In this document: in pieces, positions 411 to 60,003 of the stretch
Numbering within the stretch: position 1 is the first letter of the stretch
How the letters are laid out: every line of letters starts with the position of its first letter
DNA from: Bacteroidales bacterium
GTDB taxonomy: Bacteria; Bacteroidota; Bacteroidia; Bacteroidales; P3
Length of the DNA stretch: 64,000 nt
Assembly (NCBI GenBank): GCA_017934545.1
Contig: JAGBJI010000009.1
Coordinates: 1 to 64,000 of the forward strand
Direction of reading: 5' to 3'
Position numbers and translations under genes: made by a program
Notes under the pieces: generated by a model
The model's input: the letters and a program-made list of their open reading frames with translations, nothing else
Database searches by the model: none
Told to the model about the DNA's origin: nothing

Positions 411-420
411 AAGTAATAAA

Positions 421-500
421 AAAACCTGCTTTTTCATCAGAAAAAAAGTGGTTTTTTGTTGCAAAAAAAGTGGTTTTTTCACTCAAAAAACCTGCTTTTT
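421..500. repeat. 22-bp A/T-tract array, core words CCTGC and GTGG
   Basis: Four units each have an A tract, a short core and a T tract. The cores are CCTGC (425), GTGG (448), GTGG (470) and CCTGC (491), so the outer pair is identical, the inner pair is identical, and 425 to 491 is exactly 3 x 22 bp. The cores are not palindromic, unlike the CATATG arrays, but the geometry is the same. It lies downstream of the leftward TPR gene, beyond that gene's putative terminator. Confidence 0.75.
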
Positions 501-605
501 TATTCTCTAAAGCGGCGTTCGGCTAAAACGGATTCTGATTGCAGAGGGTTATTTTAGGGTTTTACTCTTATACATTAATATATATGTACTGCAAATTATA
601 AAAAC

Positions 606-3883: not shown

Positions 3884-3961
3884 AAAAACGTTTTTTTTGC
3901 AAAATCCACGACTTTTTAATCATTGTTCCGCCCGATTAAAAAGCGTGAATAAAAATTTGTT

Positions 3962-4077
3962 TTCAGAAAAGAAAAATAAAAAACATATGTATTTTTTCAA
4001 AAAAACATATGAATTTTAATCAAAAAACATATGTTTTTCGTTTCAAAAACATATGTTTTTTTTAATTCGGTTTCTGA
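3962..4077. repeat. 22-bp CATATG array, copy 1 (direct)
   Basis: Cores start at 3962 (TTCAGA), 3984, 4006, 4028, 4050 (all CATATG) and 4072 (TTCTGA): six cores at exactly 22-bp steps. Each CATATG is flanked by 5-7 A and usually 5-8 T, so several units approach the 18-bp palindrome AAAAAACATATGTTTTTT. It sits in the 458-bp divergent gap between the cargo gene and ruvA, between their two promoters. The rest of the gap, apart from those promoters, shows no gene. Confidence 0.9.
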
Positions 4078-4242
4078 AAACAATTTTTTTAAACGTATAT
4101 ACATATATATTATATAAGGTTTTATCACCGAAGAAAAACAAAAAGGCACGGAGCAAATGCAAATCCAAAAGAAAAAAAAGGCAAAACAACAACGGTAAAA
4201 ATAAAAAAACATACTGAAAATCGGTATTTAAAAATATTATCT

Positions 4243-14078: not shown

Positions 14079-14135
14079 AAAAATACCCCCTTTTTTCTGT
14101 GAAAAAAGGGGGTATTTTTACTGAAAAAACCGGGT
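14079..14135 (+). terminator. Terminator hairpin forming part of a 22-bp array (CCCCC/GGGGG cores)
   Basis: Arms 14079-14097 and 14101-14119 are perfectly complementary (19 bp) with a 3-nt loop, ending in a T run: a very strong intrinsic terminator 50 bp after the reductase. Core words CCCCC (14086), GGGGG (14108) and CCGGG (14130) are each exactly 22 bp apart and flanked by A/T tracts, so the terminator is also a three-unit array of the kind found elsewhere in the window. The remaining ~150 bp of the gap is A/T-rich without genes. Confidence 0.85.
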
Positions 14136-14280
14136 ATTTTCCGAACTCTTTTCTGATTTGGCAAAAACCTAATGAGAAAACGCAACACAAAAATCTGTTA
14201 AGGCCGATTGTCCTATGTGCTTTTTTTCAGTATTTTATCTATTTTATGGTAAAAATGTTCTTTATTTCAAAATAAATACA

Positions 14281-17464: not shown

Positions 17465-17526
17465 ACGCATAAAAACAGTTTAAACCACCTTTTTGCAATC
17501 TCGTTTGTGAAAAGGAAAATAAAAAA

Positions 17527-17598
17527 CATATGTTTTTGAATAAAAAAACATATGTTTTTTATTTAAAATTCATATGTTTTTTTGAAAAAATACATATG
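17527..17598. repeat. 22-bp CATATG array, copy 2 (inverted)
   Basis: CATATG starts at 17527, 17549, 17571 and 17593, exactly 22 bp apart. The asymmetric unit (ATTCATATG preceded by TTTAAAATT) shows that this copy lies in the opposite orientation to copy 1. It sits in the 267-bp gap between two rightward units, about 100 bp before the promoter of the next gene. Confidence 0.9.
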
Positions 17599-17700
17599 TT
17601 TTTTCAAAATGAATTCACAAAACAAAACCGTCAAAACTCTGAACACCTTGAACGGAATGTATTTTTCAGCGAATATTGCGGTTATTTCAAAACTTATTCT

Positions 17701-21308: not shown

Positions 21309-22322
21309 ATGGGCATACAGTCTATTATACCCAAAATAAAAACACAGGACACGGTCGTTTTTTCCGTTTCGCTGTTTTCAAGCGAAGACAGACTGATTTT
21401 GGCTCCGATGCAAAACCTGACAAGTGCGTTTTTCAGAAAAACATTCAACGATTTTTTTCCGTCAAACATTGACAGTGCCGTTTCGCCTTTCATTTCCACC
21501 TCATCGTCTTCGCAAAACATAAACTCTTCTGTATACCGTGACATCTTAAAAGAAGAAAACAATAACTACATTGAACTTGTCCCGCAAATTCTCGGTCACT
21601 GTCCGACGGCCGTTGCACAATGTGCCGCAATCATTGAGCGGTTGGGATACAGGGAAGTAAACATCAACATGGGCTGTCCGAAAAAAGACATTGTCAATCA
21701 TGACCGCGGGGCAGGCCTTTTACGCAGAGCGGATTTGGTTAAACAAATCATTGAAAACATACTGACAACCACCAATCTGCAAATAAGTCTGAAAGTTCGG
21801 TTAGGCATAAACAATTCAACGGAATTGCAAAACCTTGTGCCTGTAATAAATTCCTACCCGTTGAAATCAGTAACCGTTCACTCCAGAACTCAAGTGCAAC
21901 AATACCAAGGACGCCCTAATTTAGATGAATTTGAACGTTTTGCACTCCAAATCAAACCTACCGTCGTATATAACGGAGATATTTTTTCAGCCGAAGATTT
22001 TACAAAACTCAAGATGCGGTTTCCGTTCATAAAACATTGGATGATAGGCCGCGGAATATTACAAAATCCGTTTCTTTGTGCCGATATACGCAACATTCCT
22101 TACAATAAACAACAAACACTGCTGCCCTACCTTACGGCGTTGCAGGACAATTTCGCCCAATCGCTTATGCACCCGAGCGAAACCGCCGTGCTTAACAAGA
22201 TGAAAGAAATGGTAAAATATCTTTCCGTAGGTTTCCGTTTTGAAACCGAAGAATTGCTGCACACAGAGCAACTTGCGGATTTCAACTTTAAATTAAAACA
22301 ACAAATTGAAAACATGTTTTAA
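21309..22322 (+). CDS. dus: tRNA-dihydrouridine synthase
   Basis: About 337 residues from ATG 21309 (a TTG at 21303 would add two). Dus enzymes use FMN and NADPH to reduce uridines in tRNA D-loops. Visible motifs are LILAPMQNLTSAFFRK (FMN site), NINMGCPKKDI with the catalytic Cys, LKVRLGI, VTVHSRTQVQQYQGRP, VVYNGDIFSAED and MIGRGILQNPF. About 28 residues precede the usual start of the barrel. It ends the 17732 operon; a CATATG array follows 31 bp after the stop. Confidence 0.93.
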   Translation: MGIQSIIPKIKTQDTVVFSVSLFSSEDRLILAPMQNLTSAFFRKTFNDFFPSNIDSAVSPFISTSSSSQNINSSVYRDILKEENNNYIELVPQILGHCPTAVAQCAAIIERLGYREVNINMGCPKKDIVNHDRGAGLLRRADLVKQIIENILTTTNLQISLKVRLGINNSTELQNLVPVINSYPLKSVTVHSRTQVQQYQGRPNLDEFERFALQIKPTVVYNGDIFSAEDFTKLKMRFPFIKHWMIGRGILQNPFLCADIRNIPYNKQQTLLPYLTALQDNFAQSLMHPSETAVLNKMKEMVKYLSVGFRFETEELLHTEQLADFNFKLKQQIENMF

Positions 22323-22353
22323 AAATACGCATTGACATTTGAATTTGAAAAAA

Positions 22354-22447
22354 CATATGTTTTTGAATAAAAAAACATATGAATTTTAATCAAAAAACAT
22401 ATGTTTTTTTTCTGAAATACATATGTTTTTTTTTATTCCTTTTCAGA
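22354..22447. repeat. 22-bp CATATG array, copy 3 (direct)
   Basis: CATATG starts at 22354, 22376, 22398 and 22420, followed by TTCAGA at 22442: five cores at exactly 22 bp. Linker 2 (AATTTTAATCAAAAAA) is identical to that of copies 1, 4 and 6. Linkers 1 and 3 differ, so this is a diverged copy. It fills the first part of the 323-bp gap between dus and rpsU; the remainder holds the rpsU promoter and leader. Confidence 0.9.
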
Positions 22448-22560
22448 AAAGGATTTTTTTACACATATAAATGCCGCGGCAAACTGTCGGTACAGTACGT
22501 ATTAAAAAGATGCTTTTTGCAACGAAATTAGATATTTATGCAATAAAAATTTGAAAATAT

Positions 22561-22591
22561 TTTGTCAGAACAATAAAAAGATGTAATTTTG
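22561..22591 (+). promoter_or_regulatory. rpsU promoter
   Basis: TTTG at 22561 and TAATTTTG at 22584-22591 are separated by 19 bp, a near-ideal Bacteroidetes promoter. The predicted leader is about 50 nt. Confidence 0.7.
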
Positions 22592-22628
22592 CAATTTCAA
22601 AGTAACAATTAGTATTAACATTTAAAAA

Positions 22629-27149: not shown

Positions 27150-27203
27150 TTAAAAAATCTCAATCAACTTTATAAAAAATCACAACGTTGTTTTCTTTAA
27201 ACT

Positions 27204-27262
27204 CTTTTCAGAAAAGAATTTTTTCTTTTCTGAAAACAATTTTTTCTTTTCTGAAAAGGATT
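27204..27262. repeat. 21-bp array built on TTCNGAA cores
   Basis: Three units, TTTTCAGAAAAGAATTTTTT, TTTTCTGAAAACAATTTTTT and TTTTCTGAAAAGGATTTT, repeat at exactly 21 bp. The core is the 7-bp palindrome TTCNGAA. The same core closes most CATATG arrays at the next register position. It lies in the 126-bp gap inside the inositol operon, between the CDP-alcohol transferase and the flippase-like gene. Confidence 0.8.
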
Positions 27263-38895: not shown

Positions 38896-39050
38896 CTCAA
38901 TTTTTTCATTATACCGCTCCGCTTGCATCATTTACTCTGCAACATCATATTTATACGCCGACCGAAAACGTATTTCACTATAAATATTCCGCCCTGATTT
39001 CAACAAAACCGCACCCAGACGTTTTACTTTTTAGTTTTAATTTCAAAAAA

Positions 39051-39144
39051 CATATGTATTTTTATAAAAAAACATATGAATTTTAATCAAAAAACATATG
39101 TTTTTGAAAAGAAAAACATATGTTTTTTTTCTGCGTTTTCAGGA
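39051..39144. repeat. 22-bp CATATG array, copy 4 (direct)
   Basis: CATATG starts at 39051, 39073, 39095 and 39117, then TCAGGA at 39139: five cores at exactly 22 bp. Linker 1 (TATTTTTATAAAAAAA) is shared with copy 5 and linker 2 with copies 1, 3 and 6. It occupies the 348-bp gap between the leftward nudix gene and the leftward 39211 gene. Apart from the nudix promoter and the terminator at 39174, I see nothing else in this gap. Confidence 0.9.
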
Positions 39145-39173
39145 ATGGATTTTTTTATATCATAAAAATAAAA

Positions 39174-39201
39174 AACGCCGCACTTTTTTCCGTGCGGCGT
39201 T
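39174..39201 (-). terminator. Terminator after the 39211 gene
   Basis: AACGCCGCAC (39174-39183) and GTGCGGCGTT (39192-39201) are perfectly complementary with an 8-nt loop. On the minus strand the hairpin follows the stop codon of the barrel-like protein and is followed by a T-rich run. Confidence 0.85.
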
Positions 39202-39210
39202 GCAAGAGTT

Positions 39211-39846
39211 TTAATGAAATATTGGGATATTCACCGACAACTGAACAAAGAATTGGTTTGTTCTGTCTTTAGGCAAATCCTGTATATCGGCAACGGACTG
39301 CCATCTGTGTTTATTCAAACCGAACAAATAGCCTGCCTGTACATTCCATGCCTTGTTTTTGTATCGCAAATAAGGTCCTAACGAATGCACTTTTATACAA
39401 TATTGATTGACAAATGCACCTTCATCGTATGAAAACCGTGTGTATTCGTCCTGCCATTTAACTCCTAAAGAACAGTAATACTTTTCCTTTTCAAACAACT
39501 GCATATCTATTGAAGAAGAAAGAACGGTTTTTGAAGCAAAATCATCGTCCTGCAAAATCCCTATGCTGTATTCCGATTGGAAGCAAATCCATTCATCAAA
39601 GGCTTTGTATCTTCCGCCGATTGTAAACATCAAGGAATTTTTCAAATCTTTTGCCTTGTCAAAATCAAATCCAGCAGAATAACCATCAGTCAAGCCTGCA
39701 TACAACTCAACTCTGTCCTGCAATCTCCATTCACTGCTTTGTGCATATGCAGTTTTAACAAACATCGGCAAAACCGCAAGACTTAACACAATTGCAAAAC
39801 GTTTAATCATCTCTGTATTCATTTTTACACAAGTCAATTTCTTCAT
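39211..39846 (-). CDS. Secreted/outer-membrane beta-rich protein of unknown function
   Basis: The 211-residue frame starts MKKLTCVKMNTEMIKRFAI; the signal peptide proper (MIKRFAIVLSLAVLPMFVKTAYAQ) ends near residue 36, so a start at the internal MNTE is also possible. The upstream ATG is favoured by a good Shine-Dalgarno (AAAGGAGT, 4 nt away). The mature part has amphipathic strands (YSAGFDFDKA, LMFTIGGRYKAF, YCSLGVKWQDEY, WNVQAGYLFGLNKH) ending NIPIFH, like a small 8-10-strand barrel. It has a long leader and its own terminator. I recognise no named family. Confidence 0.75.
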   Translation of the reverse strand: MKKLTCVKMNTEMIKRFAIVLSLAVLPMFVKTAYAQSSEWRLQDRVELYAGLTDGYSAGFDFDKAKDLKNSLMFTIGGRYKAFDEWICFQSEYSIGILQDDDFASKTVLSSSIDMQLFEKEKYYCSLGVKWQDEYTRFSYDEGAFVNQYCIKVHSLGPYLRYKNKAWNVQAGYLFGLNKHRWQSVADIQDLPKDRTNQFFVQLSVNIPIFH

Positions 39847-40165: not shown

Positions 40166-40328
40166 TACAATTATATAAAAAGCGGCATAAAGACCGTTTT
40201 TTTCGGATTTTATCCCATAAATACCACTAATCATAACTATCAGCACGATGTTTAAACTGTCAATGCGGCAACAAAATAGACTGTTCCGCACAACCGTCCG
40301 ACTGTTTTTTGAAAATAAAAATAAAAAA

Positions 40329-40422
40329 CATATGTATTTTTATAAAAAAACATATGAATTTTAATTAAAAAACATATGTTCTTCGTTTCAAAAACATATG
40401 TTTTTTTTCTGCGTTTTCAGAA
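40329..40422. repeat. 22-bp CATATG array, copy 5 (direct)
   Basis: CATATG starts at 40329, 40351, 40373 and 40395, then TCAGAA at 40417: five cores at exactly 22 bp. It differs from copy 6 mainly by single substitutions (ATTAAAAAA for ATCAAAAAA; TTCTTCG for TTTTTCG), as expected of drifting copies of one block. It lies between two leftward genes, beyond the terminator of the upstream one. Confidence 0.9.
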
Positions 40423-40470
40423 AAGGATTTCTTTTATTCTATAAAAAACTGCAATGCTTTATATAAACAA

Positions 40471-40502
40471 AACGGGCGGCACGCATATGCGTGCCGCCCG
40501 TT
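40471..40502 (-). terminator. Terminator of the type A cargo gene, a perfect 32-bp palindrome
   Basis: 40471-40502 is a perfect inverted repeat (AACGGGCGGCACGCAT and its complement) with no separate loop, GC-rich in an AT-rich gap. It lies 24 bp past the stop codon of the 40526 gene. Its centre, GCATATGC, contains the CATATG word of the arrays but is not in their 22-bp register. Confidence 0.85.
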
Positions 40503-40525: not shown

Positions 40526-43500
40526 TTACTTAACAATCAATTTGGCTGATTGTGTGTTTTTGTTCGTAGTCATTCTTATCATGTAAACGCCTCTTTGCAA
40601 TCCGCGTACATCCAACACCTGCGTGTGAGTGCCTTTTGACTGACGCGGCATCTCAAATACCGACACTTCTCTTCCGTTCATATCTATCATAGTAAACGTT
40701 ACATCGTCAGGAGTGTCCAATGTATAGGCGATAGTTGCCTGCGAAGATGCAGGGTTAGGATAAACCGTTACATTCAATTGTGATTGGTTGTTGATAACAC
40801 CGTCTATTGATACGAACGTACGGGTAGTATCCAAATATACATTGTTCATATACAATCCTTTTCCGTATGTTGCTGCATACATAACTCCTCTGTTTACAGG
40901 TGCATCGTACTGCATAGCCTCGGAATTGTCGCCCGTGTAAGCAAGGAAGTTCCATTGAGGAAGATTGGTGCGTTGTTGGTACAAATCGTAAACAGGTACT
41001 GCAGGAATTGATTCGTCCTTTGTCCATGAAGAACCGTTGGTTGTGTAATACAATCCGTCGTCGCTTCCTACGTAAATTCTGCCCGAACCGCCTACTTTTT
41101 CGTACAATGCGGAAAATACAGGCTTAACATTGTCGCTGCTGTTCTCCGGGTTAAGGTCCATTGCCGTAAAGGTAGGTGCATCTGCCAATGCATTGGTAGT
41201 TCTCATTACGTTTGCGTTCGTGCTGTTATAACCGTCAAAAGTTATAATCATATTGTTTGAGTTGTCAGGGTCACATACTATAGACGATATCTGACGGGTG
41301 TATGTTCCGATAACCGTTGAAGTAAATTTCTCAACTTCATTTCCCACTCCGACGAACAATCTGTCGTTGCTTATGTCTACATCGTTCAATCCGCTTATTC
41401 TTATCAATTCGGTGTTTTCATATGTAGTCATACCGGAGAAATGGTCAACGGACAAAAATGCACTTGTTCCGTCCTGTGACAATGCAACTGCATGTATTCT
41501 TGTGTTAAGTGTGGATGTTTCTGCGTCAATAGGCAAACCTGCAGTGTAGATACGCGCCCATGTAAGGTTGCCGAAACTTTCTGGGTCTGTGTTTATCGTC
41601 TTTGAGAAGTCAAATATTTTTCCGCAAATGAATGCTCCCGTCGTTGTTGCGACCAATGCTCTTGACTGAACCTTCTGCGGAACTTTCATGGAAAAGTCTG
41701 CATTTTTGTAGAACAATACATCGCCGCTTCCCAATTCGTAAGCATCGGAAGCAACACTGCTCAATGTATTCACATCTGTAGCAGAGAACACATGGAAGAA
41801 TGGATAACCCAAAATATCGCTTATAACCAAAACGGAGTCACCCGCTTTTATCTCTCTTCCGTCTTTGCAATCCAACGATTCTCCGTTTCTGTGAATGGTT
41901 GTATACTTGGTTAATTTCACCAAAACGCTGTCAAACTTGCTGTCAAAGTCAAACGATTCCCACAAAGCTGCAGGTGTAACGAATTGGTCGTAGGTTTCAT
42001 TGCCTCCCATTGTGGATATAAGCAATACTTGTGAAGATACGCCTGAATTTGCTGCCGCTCCGTAAGTCCATGTTTGGTCATCAACGGCAGTAAAGTCGCC
42101 TTGGTTACCGTAAGTTCTGGTTACGTTGGTTCCCGGACGTGACAACAACATAGGTTTTCTCTTTGAAGGAAGAGTTCTGTATATGCCTGATGTTCCCACA
42201 TAGCCGGCACTGAAGATGGAAGGTTCGTTTGCGTAATATCCGTTCATTGCCGAATAGGTCAAAGGGTTGCTTGTATACGGATAACCGGCATTGTTTACCG
42301 ACCAAATCTTCATTCCTCCCTTTGCAACTGAATCCGAAACAGATGACATGTACATTACGGCATTTGATTGCGTTGCTGCCAAAACAGAACCGTCAACTGC
42401 AGCTGCTATCTTGTAAGATTGAAGCGTGTTAACGTTCTTTGCAGACGACAACCACTGATATTGCTGCAAATAATTGTCGTAATAATAGCGGTAAGGTCCG
42501 CAATCAGTCATGGCAAACATCAAAGAATTGCTGTCAGCATCAACTGTTCTTATTATAGAATGGATATTCGGTGCAACATAGTATGTCAAAGTATCGCTTG
42601 CAACCGAAGAGGTGATAGGAGAAAATGAAAACAATCCTTCGCCGTTAACATCCGTACCCGACAAAACTATTTCTCCGCCCAAGTAAATGGTTTCTTCGTC
42701 CGAAGATTCATCGTCCACGTTTATAGCCATTGCTTCTCCCAAGTTGTAACCTAAACTGTAAGCCGTAACCTGCGGAGAAATTTTAGTCCATTTCTCTGCT
42801 TCGGTGCCTATGTTGTTAATTCCGTTTTCCGTATCTGCAGGACGGTAAATGCCAAGCAATATTCCCGTCATCTTGTTTGTCAAGTCGGCTCCTTTCAACG
42901 AACCTGCTACCATAACGAAAAGATTGTTCGGATTTTTCTGTCCGAAAGTAAGTTTTATTCTTCCTATTGCACGGTTTGATTCTACTGTAGTTTCGTTCAT
43001 TACAGTGGTAAACGCCGAAGACGAACCCTCTTGGTTAAGGGCTACAAATGCCATTGACTCGTCTATATCGGTTGCTGCAACGGCTACTCTTCCGTCAGCG
43101 TTGACTGCAATGTCGTTTATAACCAACACTGTTTGTCCGCCTATCTGAACGTTTGTAAATGTCTGACCGCCGTCAGCGGACATTTTCAAACCCGAATTGT
43201 AAGTTCCTACATACAAAGTGCCGTTGACATAAGCCATATTGTTGATAAATGCCCATGCGTCTTCGTTGTCATATTTGTTTGCAGGCACCGTGGCAGGTAA
43301 TACCGTGAATTTGAAATTCTGTGCTATGTAATCATATTTTTGTGCATCGGTTGTAAGATTGGCCGACCACTGTTTTTCAGCACCGGAATTTTGTTTGTAA
43401 ACACCACTTCCTATTTTGCCGGAAGTATGGTTGCTGTGTCCCAAAGGATTTTCTTCGTTAAGCGTAACTCTGTAATATCCTTCGCCCGTGCCTATATAAA

Positions 43501-43804
43501 GCAATCCGTCATCGTCCTGGGCTATGGCGGTAACATTGTCAACCGTGCTGCCCAATGCAACTTCCTGCCAATTGTGACCGTAGTTTACGCTCACGTAAAG
43601 ACCTCCGACAGTACCCATCCATATAACGCCCGGGTTAAACTTGTCAAAGACTGCCGTACGGGAACGTCCTGCCTGATTGTTTGGACCGATTAAATTCCAC
43701 TGATCCTCTTCCGCATTAATATACGGAGATGCCATTGCCGAATTGACCATCATTCCCATGACAGCACAAAGCAATACACTCAAAAGAAACTTTCTGTTTT
43801 TCAT
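40526..43804 (-). CDS. Secreted T9SS cargo protein, beta-propeller with type A sorting domain
   Basis: The 1092-residue protein has a signal peptide (MKNRKFLLSVLLCAVMGMM, cleavage near residue 25). The N-terminal half has sortilin/BNR-type propeller phrases (GVIWMGTVGGLYVSVNYGHN, DDDGLLYIGTGEGYY, NGTLYVGTYNSGLKMSADGG), repeated later (GRIYVGSDDGLYYTTNGSSW). The last ~80 residues are a type A T9SS sorting domain (VTVYPNPASSQATIAYTL, DMNGREV, LQRGVYMIRM, SAKLIVK). It should pass the SprA channel and be cleaved and anchored. No catalytic residues are recognised; ligand binding or a glycosidase-like role are both possible. It has its own promoter and terminator. Confidence 0.9.
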   Translation of the reverse strand: MKNRKFLLSVLLCAVMGMMVNSAMASPYINAEEDQWNLIGPNNQAGRSRTAVFDKFNPGVIWMGTVGGLYVSVNYGHNWQEVALGSTVDNVTAIAQDDDGLLYIGTGEGYYRVTLNEENPLGHSNHTSGKIGSGVYKQNSGAEKQWSANLTTDAQKYDYIAQNFKFTVLPATVPANKYDNEDAWAFINNMAYVNGTLYVGTYNSGLKMSADGGQTFTNVQIGGQTVLVINDIAVNADGRVAVAATDIDESMAFVALNQEGSSSAFTTVMNETTVESNRAIGRIKLTFGQKNPNNLFVMVAGSLKGADLTNKMTGILLGIYRPADTENGINNIGTEAEKWTKISPQVTAYSLGYNLGEAMAINVDDESSDEETIYLGGEIVLSGTDVNGEGLFSFSPITSSVASDTLTYYVAPNIHSIIRTVDADSNSLMFAMTDCGPYRYYYDNYLQQYQWLSSAKNVNTLQSYKIAAAVDGSVLAATQSNAVMYMSSVSDSVAKGGMKIWSVNNAGYPYTSNPLTYSAMNGYYANEPSIFSAGYVGTSGIYRTLPSKRKPMLLSRPGTNVTRTYGNQGDFTAVDDQTWTYGAAANSGVSSQVLLISTMGGNETYDQFVTPAALWESFDFDSKFDSVLVKLTKYTTIHRNGESLDCKDGREIKAGDSVLVISDILGYPFFHVFSATDVNTLSSVASDAYELGSGDVLFYKNADFSMKVPQKVQSRALVATTTGAFICGKIFDFSKTINTDPESFGNLTWARIYTAGLPIDAETSTLNTRIHAVALSQDGTSAFLSVDHFSGMTTYENTELIRISGLNDVDISNDRLFVGVGNEVEKFTSTVIGTYTRQISSIVCDPDNSNNMIITFDGYNSTNANVMRTTNALADAPTFTAMDLNPENSSDNVKPVFSALYEKVGGSGRIYVGSDDGLYYTTNGSSWTKDESIPAVPVYDLYQQRTNLPQWNFLAYTGDNSEAMQYDAPVNRGVMYAATYGKGLYMNNVYLDTTRTFVSIDGVINNQSQLNVTVYPNPASSQATIAYTLDTPDDVTFTMIDMNGREVSVFEMPRQSKGTHTQVLDVRGLQRGVYMIRMTTNKNTQSAKLIVK

Positions 43805-43866: not shown

Positions 43867-44086
43867 CGCAAAAAAAATCACATGACAAGATTTTATGCCG
43901 AATTTTTTCTGTCCGTCTGCATTTTTATAACATTTACATTCACATCTTGCATTTGAAAATCAACAAAATATATAGTTTATACTTACTTTTACAACTGCAA
44001 ACTCCGTGCCGACATTAATTTTACGGTTTTTCCCCGCCGCAAAACCGAATTAAAAAATATTGTTTTGAGAAACGAAAAATAAAAAA

Positions 44087-44180
44087 CATATGTATTTTTT
44101 CAAAAAAACATATGAATTTTAATCAAAAAACATATGTTTTTCGTTTCAAAAACATATGTTTTTTTTATTTAGATTCTGAA
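44087..44180. repeat. 22-bp CATATG array, copy 6 (direct)
   Basis: CATATG starts at 44087, 44109, 44131 and 44153; TCTGAA follows at 44175 and a TTGAGA core precedes at 44065, all on the 22-bp grid. Linkers 1-3 are identical to copy 1, although the two lie 40 kb apart. It sits in the 546-bp divergent gap between the cargo gene and moxR, between their promoters; I see no gene in the rest of the gap. Confidence 0.92.
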
Positions 44181-44272
44181 AACAATATTGTGCAGTATGG
44201 TTTAAACCGTTTTAAACGCAAAGACTTTACAAATAAAATCAGGCACGGGGAACGTTATTTGCAATTTTATAT

Positions 44273-53689: not shown

Positions 53690-53756
53690 CCTTGTTATAT
53701 TTTTTCCGCAAAACGACTGATAAAATTAATAAAGTACCGCTTTGATTCTTGAAAAG

Positions 53757-53872
53757 TCATACTTTTTTATTAATGTAATCAGACTTTTCATATCAAAAAG
53801 TCTGACTTTTATAAAGAAAAAATCTGATTTTTATAAATAAAAAGTCTGACTTTTTGATATAAAATATCAGAC
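53757..53872. repeat. 22-bp array with six TCTGAC-like cores
   Basis: Cores start at 53757 (TCATAC), 53779 (TCAGAC), 53801 (TCTGAC), 53823 (TCTGAT), 53845 (TCTGAC) and 53867 (TCAGAC), all exactly 22 bp apart and flanked by A and T tracts. None contains CATATG at core position. It fills the middle of the 538-bp gap between the barrel gene and panB; the rest holds the terminator, the panB promoter and A/T-rich sequence without genes. Confidence 0.9.
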
Positions 53873-54035
53873 TTTTTCAAAGTTACAACGGCGTTTTACG
53901 GATTTTTATACATCGTTTTAATACGGTATACATTAACTTCTTCGTATTAAAAAATCACTTAACATTTAAAAATCCGTCATCTGTTGAAAAAAAAGAAGCA
54001 ATCTGTAATAAAAAAAAGGACTTTTTCTTATTGTT

Positions 54036-59800: not shown

Positions 59801-59864
59801 TATATTTTCCGTCAAATTATTTTCGGAAAAGAAAAATTTATTTTCTCAATCCGTTTCAAAAAAA

Positions 59865-59958
59865 CATATGTTTTTGAAATAAAAAACATATGTTTTTTGA
59901 TTAAAATTCATATGTTTTTTTGAAAAAATACATATGTTTTTTATTTTTCTTTTCTGAA
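59865..59958. repeat. 22-bp CATATG array, copy 7 (inverted)
   Basis: CATATG starts at 59865, 59887, 59909 and 59931, followed by TCTGAA at 59953: exact 22-bp steps. The asymmetric unit shows that it is inverted relative to copies 1, 3, 4, 5 and 6, as is copy 2. It lies in the 253-bp gap between the 60004 gene and the hydrogenase cluster, upstream of that cluster's promoter; nothing else is seen there. Confidence 0.92.
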
Positions 59959-60003
59959 AACAAAACAGTCAAAACACAAGGCAAAAAAATTTTATCCGTT
60001 TTT

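Follow-up and report, generated by a model that had tools for sequence, protein, structure and literature searches.

Four CATATG cores whose starts lie exactly 22 bp apart, each preceded by an A tract and followed by a T tract, form an array that recurs between genes of this genome. In the stretch of DNA analyzed here (64,000 nt, hereafter the window), such arrays occupy seven places, each of which was recovered by a search for CATATG-N16-CATATG pairs. This search returned 21 exact pairs, three at every locus, and none in 100 dinucleotide shuffles of the window. The earlier note had described the seven loci, their exact pitch and the A tracts 5′ and T tracts 3′ of the cores, and the array sequences bear it out on each of these points. 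Chance or low complexity as the source of the arrays is excluded by the shuffles and by the distribution of pair distances given below. We propose that each array is a fixed-geometry, four-site binding platform, located between transcription units, for a putative protein, and would put the probability of this reading at a little under one half (about 0.47).

With its outer boxes, the element measures about 138 bp, compared with the 116 bp delimited earlier (Table 1). The middle spacer is reverse-complemented in the arrays at 17527 and 59865. The outer flank of array 2 extends past the start of the next gene as chosen by the gene caller (17609). Array 3 is flanked on one side by a stop codon (22322) and on the other by a promoter-like stretch that precedes an S21-like gene, where both the gene name and the promoter are our own reading. 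Arrays 4 and 5 lie beyond terminator-like hairpins (39174–39201 and 40471–40502) that belong to the genes at 39211–39822 and 40526–43759, respectively. We also note that the promoter-like stretch, about 70 bp long and present at 22538–22605 ahead of the S21-like gene and at 31–111, recurs in genus relatives.

Table 1. Arrays of phased dyads in the 64-kb window
Feature	Position	Strand	Description
CATATG array 1, with outer boxes	3951–4088	+	cores at 3984, 4006, 4028 and 4050; divergent gap
CATATG array 2, with outer flanks	17494–17631	−	cores 17527–17598; tandem gap
CATATG array 3	22321–22458	+	cores 22354–22425
CATATG array 4	39018–39155	+	cores 39051–39122
CATATG array 5	40296–40433	+	cores 40329–40400
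CATATG array 6	44054–44191	+	cores 44087–44158; divergent gap
CATATG array 7	59832–59969	−	cores 59865–59936
Sister array	416–504		four A-tract/core/T-tract units at 22 bp, cores ACCTGC / GTGG
Sister array	14080–14146		three units at 22 bp, C5 / G5 / CCGGG cores
Outer-box array	27198–27262		three TTTTC(A/T)GAAAA dyads at 21 bp, without CATATG
Sister array	53751–53882		about six AAAAGTC(A/T)GACTTTT-type units at 22 bp

The whole assembly (G000; 2,376,997 bases in 14 contigs) contains 106 matches to four CATATG cores at this pitch with up to two mismatches and 215 matches to three cores, and the backward-read controls gave none in either search. Because 215 three-core matches amount to about two per array, few arrays can carry an altered core. 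Among the matches listed for the four-core search, 96 are perfect arrays that can be oriented. Three arrays on contig C4 are repeated with the same spacing on contig C7, and the 6001 bases compared between the two are 100% identical, so that the number of distinct arrays is about three fewer than 106. A large segment seems to be represented redundantly in this assembly, whose contamination estimate is 8.1.

The anatomy of the element was examined in 80 stretches chosen around listed arrays together with the window (544,482 bases). The unit is A5-CATATG-T5, and a TTTTC(A/T)GAAAA box is located one 22-bp step outside each end; these outer boxes read approximately AAAAAATTGTTTTCAGAAAA and its inverse. 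Conservation drops sharply at positions −33 and +104. Runs of at least two cores contain four cores in 94 of 96 cases and two cores in the other two; one single-core site of the array form is also present in the fetched stretches, and the two-core and single-core sites look boxed too. In these stretches, which were selected around arrays, CATATG pairs no more than 70 bp apart are separated by 22 (284 pairs), 44 (188) or 66 bp (94) in 566 of 571 cases, with five pairs at other distances. Freely varying spacing, which the earlier note had named as a sign against its claim, is thus not seen. The A5N6T5 units of the same stretches form 88 clusters at 22 bp, five at 21 bp, five at 23 bp and none at the remaining pitches within 18–28 bp, and block shuffles of the window contained no such clusters.

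A mismatch-tolerant four-site scan of the fetched stretches, with a lower limit of 44 of 56 letters, recovered 94 arrays, all with scores of 51–54, and no half-decayed arrays (scores of 44–50); the stretches scanned surround perfect arrays, and arrays elsewhere with three or more altered letters would escape. Deviations from the consensus were tabulated for 91 orientable arrays that had been picked for perfect cores, so that the 0 of 2184 deviating cells in the cores reflects this choice. The A5 and T5 tracts depart from consensus in 26 of 3640 cells, the spacer centers in 350 of 1638, the outer boxes in 1230 of 3822 and the far flanks in 6717 of 10,920. The third spacer center is mostly directional (CGTTTC-like or its complement) and not palindromic.

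A constant core in drifting spacers, a fixed pitch and unit number, and a different core on the same frame in a sister species (see below) are how an array of bound sites would behave. In our model, a putative sequence-specific and probably dimeric protein would place one dimer on each A5-CATATG-T5 dyad. Given a pitch of about two helical turns, the four dimers would be located on nearly the same face of the DNA and could bind co-operatively, and the outer TTTTC(A/T)GAAAA boxes would mark the ends of the platform. A binding array was one of several roles suggested previously and is the one that fits best, since the core and tract letters hold while the spacers vary in the mismatch-tolerant scan; the protein that would occupy it is putative.

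Placement among genes, which were called with a simple gene caller of our own, is consistent with such a platform. None of the 94 four-core stretches (72 bp each) overlaps a called gene, and scattering of copies inside genes, anticipated as a second sign against the arrays, is therefore not observed. The arrays occupy 37 divergent, 47 tandem and 8 convergent gaps (92 classed), with two more at stretch ends. Called starts are never closer than 71 bp to the cores, with the exception of window array 2 (10 bp), for which the caller may have placed the start too early. The dispersal of the platforms over divergent, tandem and convergent gaps points to a genome-wide role, and their location, between one transcription unit and the next, is suggestive of anchoring or insulation. 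The likely function would be to anchor the nucleoid or to keep neighboring transcription units apart, rather than to serve one regulon. The regulon reading was rejected because there is no common neighbor family by sequence similarity: among 311 array-neighbor proteins from this genome, the sister species G081 and other species, the largest similarity clusters comprise five proteins from three to four species groups, and no family is common to most species. Even spacing along the contigs was not seen, as counts in 20-kb bins look random (variance/mean 1.12, P 0.19; 98 positions, made up of 96 listed four-core and two three-core arrays, with contig C4 left out).

The same positions bear on the possibility that the arrays act in RNA or in transcription termination, with the tandem dyads giving, on each strand, hairpins that precede T runs. 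Indeed, 34 of the 47 tandem-gap arrays start 10–88 bp past a stop codon, six arrays (three of them CATATG arrays) have folding z-scores of −4.4 to −7.5, the sister array at 14080 makes a good hairpin in either direction, and in G081 the cores within one array often complement each other. However, 37 of the 92 classed arrays are in divergent gaps, and at 39051 and 40329 the gene is already separated from the array by a terminator-like hairpin. Across our stretches, such hairpins accompany 8 of 56 stop sides and none of 120 start sides (eight sides were too short). Within tandem gaps, 33 arrays run against transcription and 14 with it. No covariation links the left outer boxes with the right ones (z −2.7 to 2.2). 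Complementarity across the whole array is no higher than in shuffles (z −3.3 to 1.5); in spacers 2 and 3 it does not exceed the shuffled level, and only spacer 1 has an excess of pairs (z up to 4.4). The arrays also lack the intrinsic-terminator form, a G+C-rich stem and a T run after genes, with two G/C per CATATG core, and no known RNA family was matched at gathering score. We therefore regard an RNA role as improbable. The related suggestion of a transcription boundary holds for the location between genes, but the divergent-gap arrays argue against it.

Among 149 genomes of the same family, the exact CATATG form was found in our own genome and was absent from the rest. The frame is more widely distributed. 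A core-free pattern (three A5N6T5 at 22 bp, up to two mismatches) matches 18 of the 149, with 481 matches in our genome, 179 in G027, 121 in G081 (several per array) and at most 10 in the others, and G037, G054, G058, G062, G070 and G078 are among the genomes with none; the backward-read control of this search recovers these arrays again, displaced by half a pitch, and thus supplies no null. G081 is a sister species in the same genus, whose arrays were found by similarity to one window array and have the same frame. In 12 of the 20 that were fetched, a run of at least three cores is captured by one regular expression at the exact pitch; the remaining eight have four units by eye, with more divergent cores and occasionally one base off. 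The cores include CCTATG, CCATGG, CCCAGG and CATAGG and are mostly mirror-imaged around the middle core. Two sister families of G081 have near-perfect terminal inverted repeats, and elements of this kind are related to the window array at 14080–14146. The array at 416–504 has relatives in G016 and G027. Sister core words include ACCTGC/GTGG, ATAGGT/TCAGAT/TGTGGT, GCCCC, ACTGT and ACTCT. We also observed that the spacer words GACTC, ACCCT, GAGGT and GGGGT recur between units across genomes, as if they formed a second set of sites.

Further frames were sought by lag scans, from which low-complexity matches were omitted (limits of 0.36 for our own stretches and 0.32 for relatives). In our own stretches (lags of 12–60 bp), the 22-bp matches comprise the 94 CATATG arrays and three others, at window positions 416 and 53761 and at L131 637. 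The last, at L131 637–735, is a G+C-richer 22-bp array of ACCGTCCGAAA units in a divergent gap and represents a further family. At 21 bp there are three matches: the 27198 box array, and repeats in L095 and L160 that seem to be coding and were discarded. Six of the 12 genus relatives that were sampled (10–88 kb each) have 21- or 22-bp lag matches; those of G027, G066, G004, G037 and G078 were retained, and the 21-bp match of G016 (L255 8222–8302), inside a called gene, was dropped. The relatives' arrays that were checked are intergenic or touch only the end of a gene, and most, although not all, have a clear dyad. Stretches of G234, which is from another family, contain 22-bp arrays with another core; those of G084 contain none.

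Four CATATG at 22 bp are also present in at least 73 stretches of a named genome collection. By record title, 67 of these are from Bacteroidota among the matches listed, a figure that is no census of taxonomic share. Xylanibacter caecicola, a cultured species, accounts for 10 of the listed stretches, and its arrays lack A tracts. The listed arrays in other Bacteroidales have spacers that differ by genome and, apart from short side runs, contain 4 to 12 units. Genes are present on both sides of 44 of 67 such arrays (22 tandem, 16 convergent and 6 divergent gaps), 23 are cut by a stretch end, and none of the 67 is inside a gene. In a drawn sample of the order, three CATATG at 22 bp occur in 4 of 393 genomes, our own included. 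The backward-read control, three GTATAC at 22 bp, gave 17 matches in G234 in this sample and, in the family scan, eight in G084, two in G095 and one each in G024 and G034; those in G234 and G084 may hint at other cores. A random order sample (16 stretches, 284 kb) contained no 21- or 22-bp lag match and one of 23 bp, which indicates that arrays of this kind are not universal in Bacteroidales. No plasmid or phage source was matched in a test weakened by its low-complexity filter, and two viral contigs with four CATATG look unrelated by eye.

These comparisons also address whether the element is one of curvature or stiffness, in which the phased A and T tracts would be all that counts and the cores would be incidental. 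We judged this from the layout of the tracts. The A5-N6-T5 frame at 22 bp is indeed kept in many arrays that have different cores, and a curvature function, as suggested earlier, is possible within the genus, where the frame outlives the core word. However, altered CATATG cores are rare although nothing in curvature calls for that word, and most same-pitch arrays listed elsewhere in Bacteroidales lack A tracts by eye, which argues against a general function of this kind. We give this explanation little credence.

A more substantial question is whether the element is a mobile repeat of the MITE kind, with the boxes as terminal inverted repeats and the inner dyads as transposase-binding sites. 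Copies would then be mobilized in trans, and only those between genes would survive. The sharp limits of conservation support this possibility, as do the terminal inverted repeats themselves, which the consensus shows as inverted outer boxes (in individual copies these are imperfect and do not covary) and which are near-perfect in the G081 sister families. Relatives also lack some of the sites. The outer-box array at 27198–27262 is absent from the orthologous gap of G081, G016 and G066. Array 59865 has an orthologous gap in G081 that is about 133 bp shorter (by match ends), close to the 138 bp of the element. Furthermore, 13 of the 20 G081 arrays have no neighbor with an ortholog in our own-genome stretches, which surround most of our arrays, so most G081 positions have no counterpart found there. 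The BrickBuilt element, as far as the available portions of its description go (PMC4596501), provides a precedent.

Several observations speak against such a repeat. No target-site duplication emerged from 3600 combinations of boundary and length (z −3.6 to 3.4), and there are no half-decayed copies in the stretches read. Array 44087 is absent from the orthologous gaps of G081 and G016, but these are shorter by 199 and 246 bp, which is not the size of the element. At 59865, the alignment has no clean join, and G081 retains only a solitary outer-box-like TTCTTTTCTGAAA. Moreover, some positions are kept with changed cores: in a test of 43 gene sides of ortholog pairs, four of the seven array-bearing G081 sides also have an array on the same side in our genome, compared with 6 of the 36 others (Fisher p 0.04, resting on the seven array-bearing sides), and alignments of the common positions show changed cores. 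Thus, some array positions may persist and many appear to have been gained or lost. L227/L117 is a possible fifth common position; here, a gene beside the array in our genome (L117 1848–2912) is called as two pieces and its G081 ortholog (L227 1873–2887) is one open frame. On this evidence, a MITE-like origin is possible but doubtful, although it is the strongest alternative to the binding array. The proposal of a small selfish repeat gains from the inverted boxes, the G081 families and the sites that relatives lack, but not from the duplications or decayed copies that might accompany it.

The binding-array reading is favored by the kept positions with changed cores, the absence of all 94 arrays from genes and the 94 of 96 core runs that have four cores. 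It is disfavored by the positions that are mostly not shared with G081, including 44087 and 59865, by the terminal inverted repeats of the G081 families, which resemble those of mobile elements, and by the strong RNA folding of the arrays. A broader and rather unlikely extension of the binding array is a modular chromosome-organizing code in Bacteroidales, in which a fixed frame would carry interchangeable core words, each matched to one member of a DNA-binding protein family. The frame would consist of dyads every 21–23 bp, with three or four units between end boxes and between transcription units, and in this genus it would read A tract–core–T tract. Core words would turn over with their protein between species, and the frame and some positions would persist.

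To our knowledge, little is known of what organizes the Bacteroidales chromosome, and a literature search turned up nothing on it. An element of constant four-site geometry that occupies about 106 intergenic positions and has a different core in a sister species may offer a direct handle on this question: one oligonucleotide could fish out the protein, and core swaps could tell whether site and protein co-evolve.

Two classes of known element share features with the arrays. REP/BIME palindromes, with their RAYT transposase, are likewise dispersed, intergenic and species-specific dyads in many copies, but the four-unit, 22-bp layout is not a REP form. A REP/RAYT identity was rejected, since the Y1 transposase domain (Y1_Tnp, PF01797) was found in none of nine genus genomes searched, our own included, with the control positive in 5 of 14. 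Clustered operator or centromere arrays of the parS/parC type have several dyads in phase with a constant core, as do the CATATG arrays, which differ in being dispersed in about a hundred copies.

No description of this array form was found in the open literature, as judged by title or start of abstract. The passages available from PMC5771137 and from a MITE review (PMC10969869) contain nothing of this form, and phased A tracts and nucleoid proteins are the topic of PMC3940949. The earlier statement that no described family has this form is nearly right, except that the BrickBuilt MITE or minisatellite of Porphyromonas gingivalis is related in kind and is the nearest described element (PMC4596501). 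According to the portions available, BrickBuilt is also from Bacteroidales, has all of its copies between genes, and combines a tandem repeat of near-identical pitch (23 nt) with inverted-repeat ends (PMC4596501). Where copies of its consensus, AGAYCATARTATCCTCTCRTRTG (PMC4596501), follow one another in direct repeat, their junction can read TCTCATATGAGA, a CATATG dyad; this dyad is our own reading, with R = A, and is not named by the BrickBuilt authors in those portions. BrickBuilt differs in its 23-nt unit, a unit number that expands and contracts between strains, a length of 84–991 nt, 19 copies in ATCC 33277, separate leader and tail segments, and terminal inverted repeats like those of IS elements (PMC4596501, same portions). 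The CATATG arrays have no distinct leader or tail segments, only short symmetrical boxes, and are characterized by a 22-bp pitch, four units, about 106 copies and other core words in the sister species. If they are a mobile repeat instead of a binding platform, it is in our judgment an unusually regular one, and elements of the BrickBuilt kind would then be known from a wide group rather than a single species.
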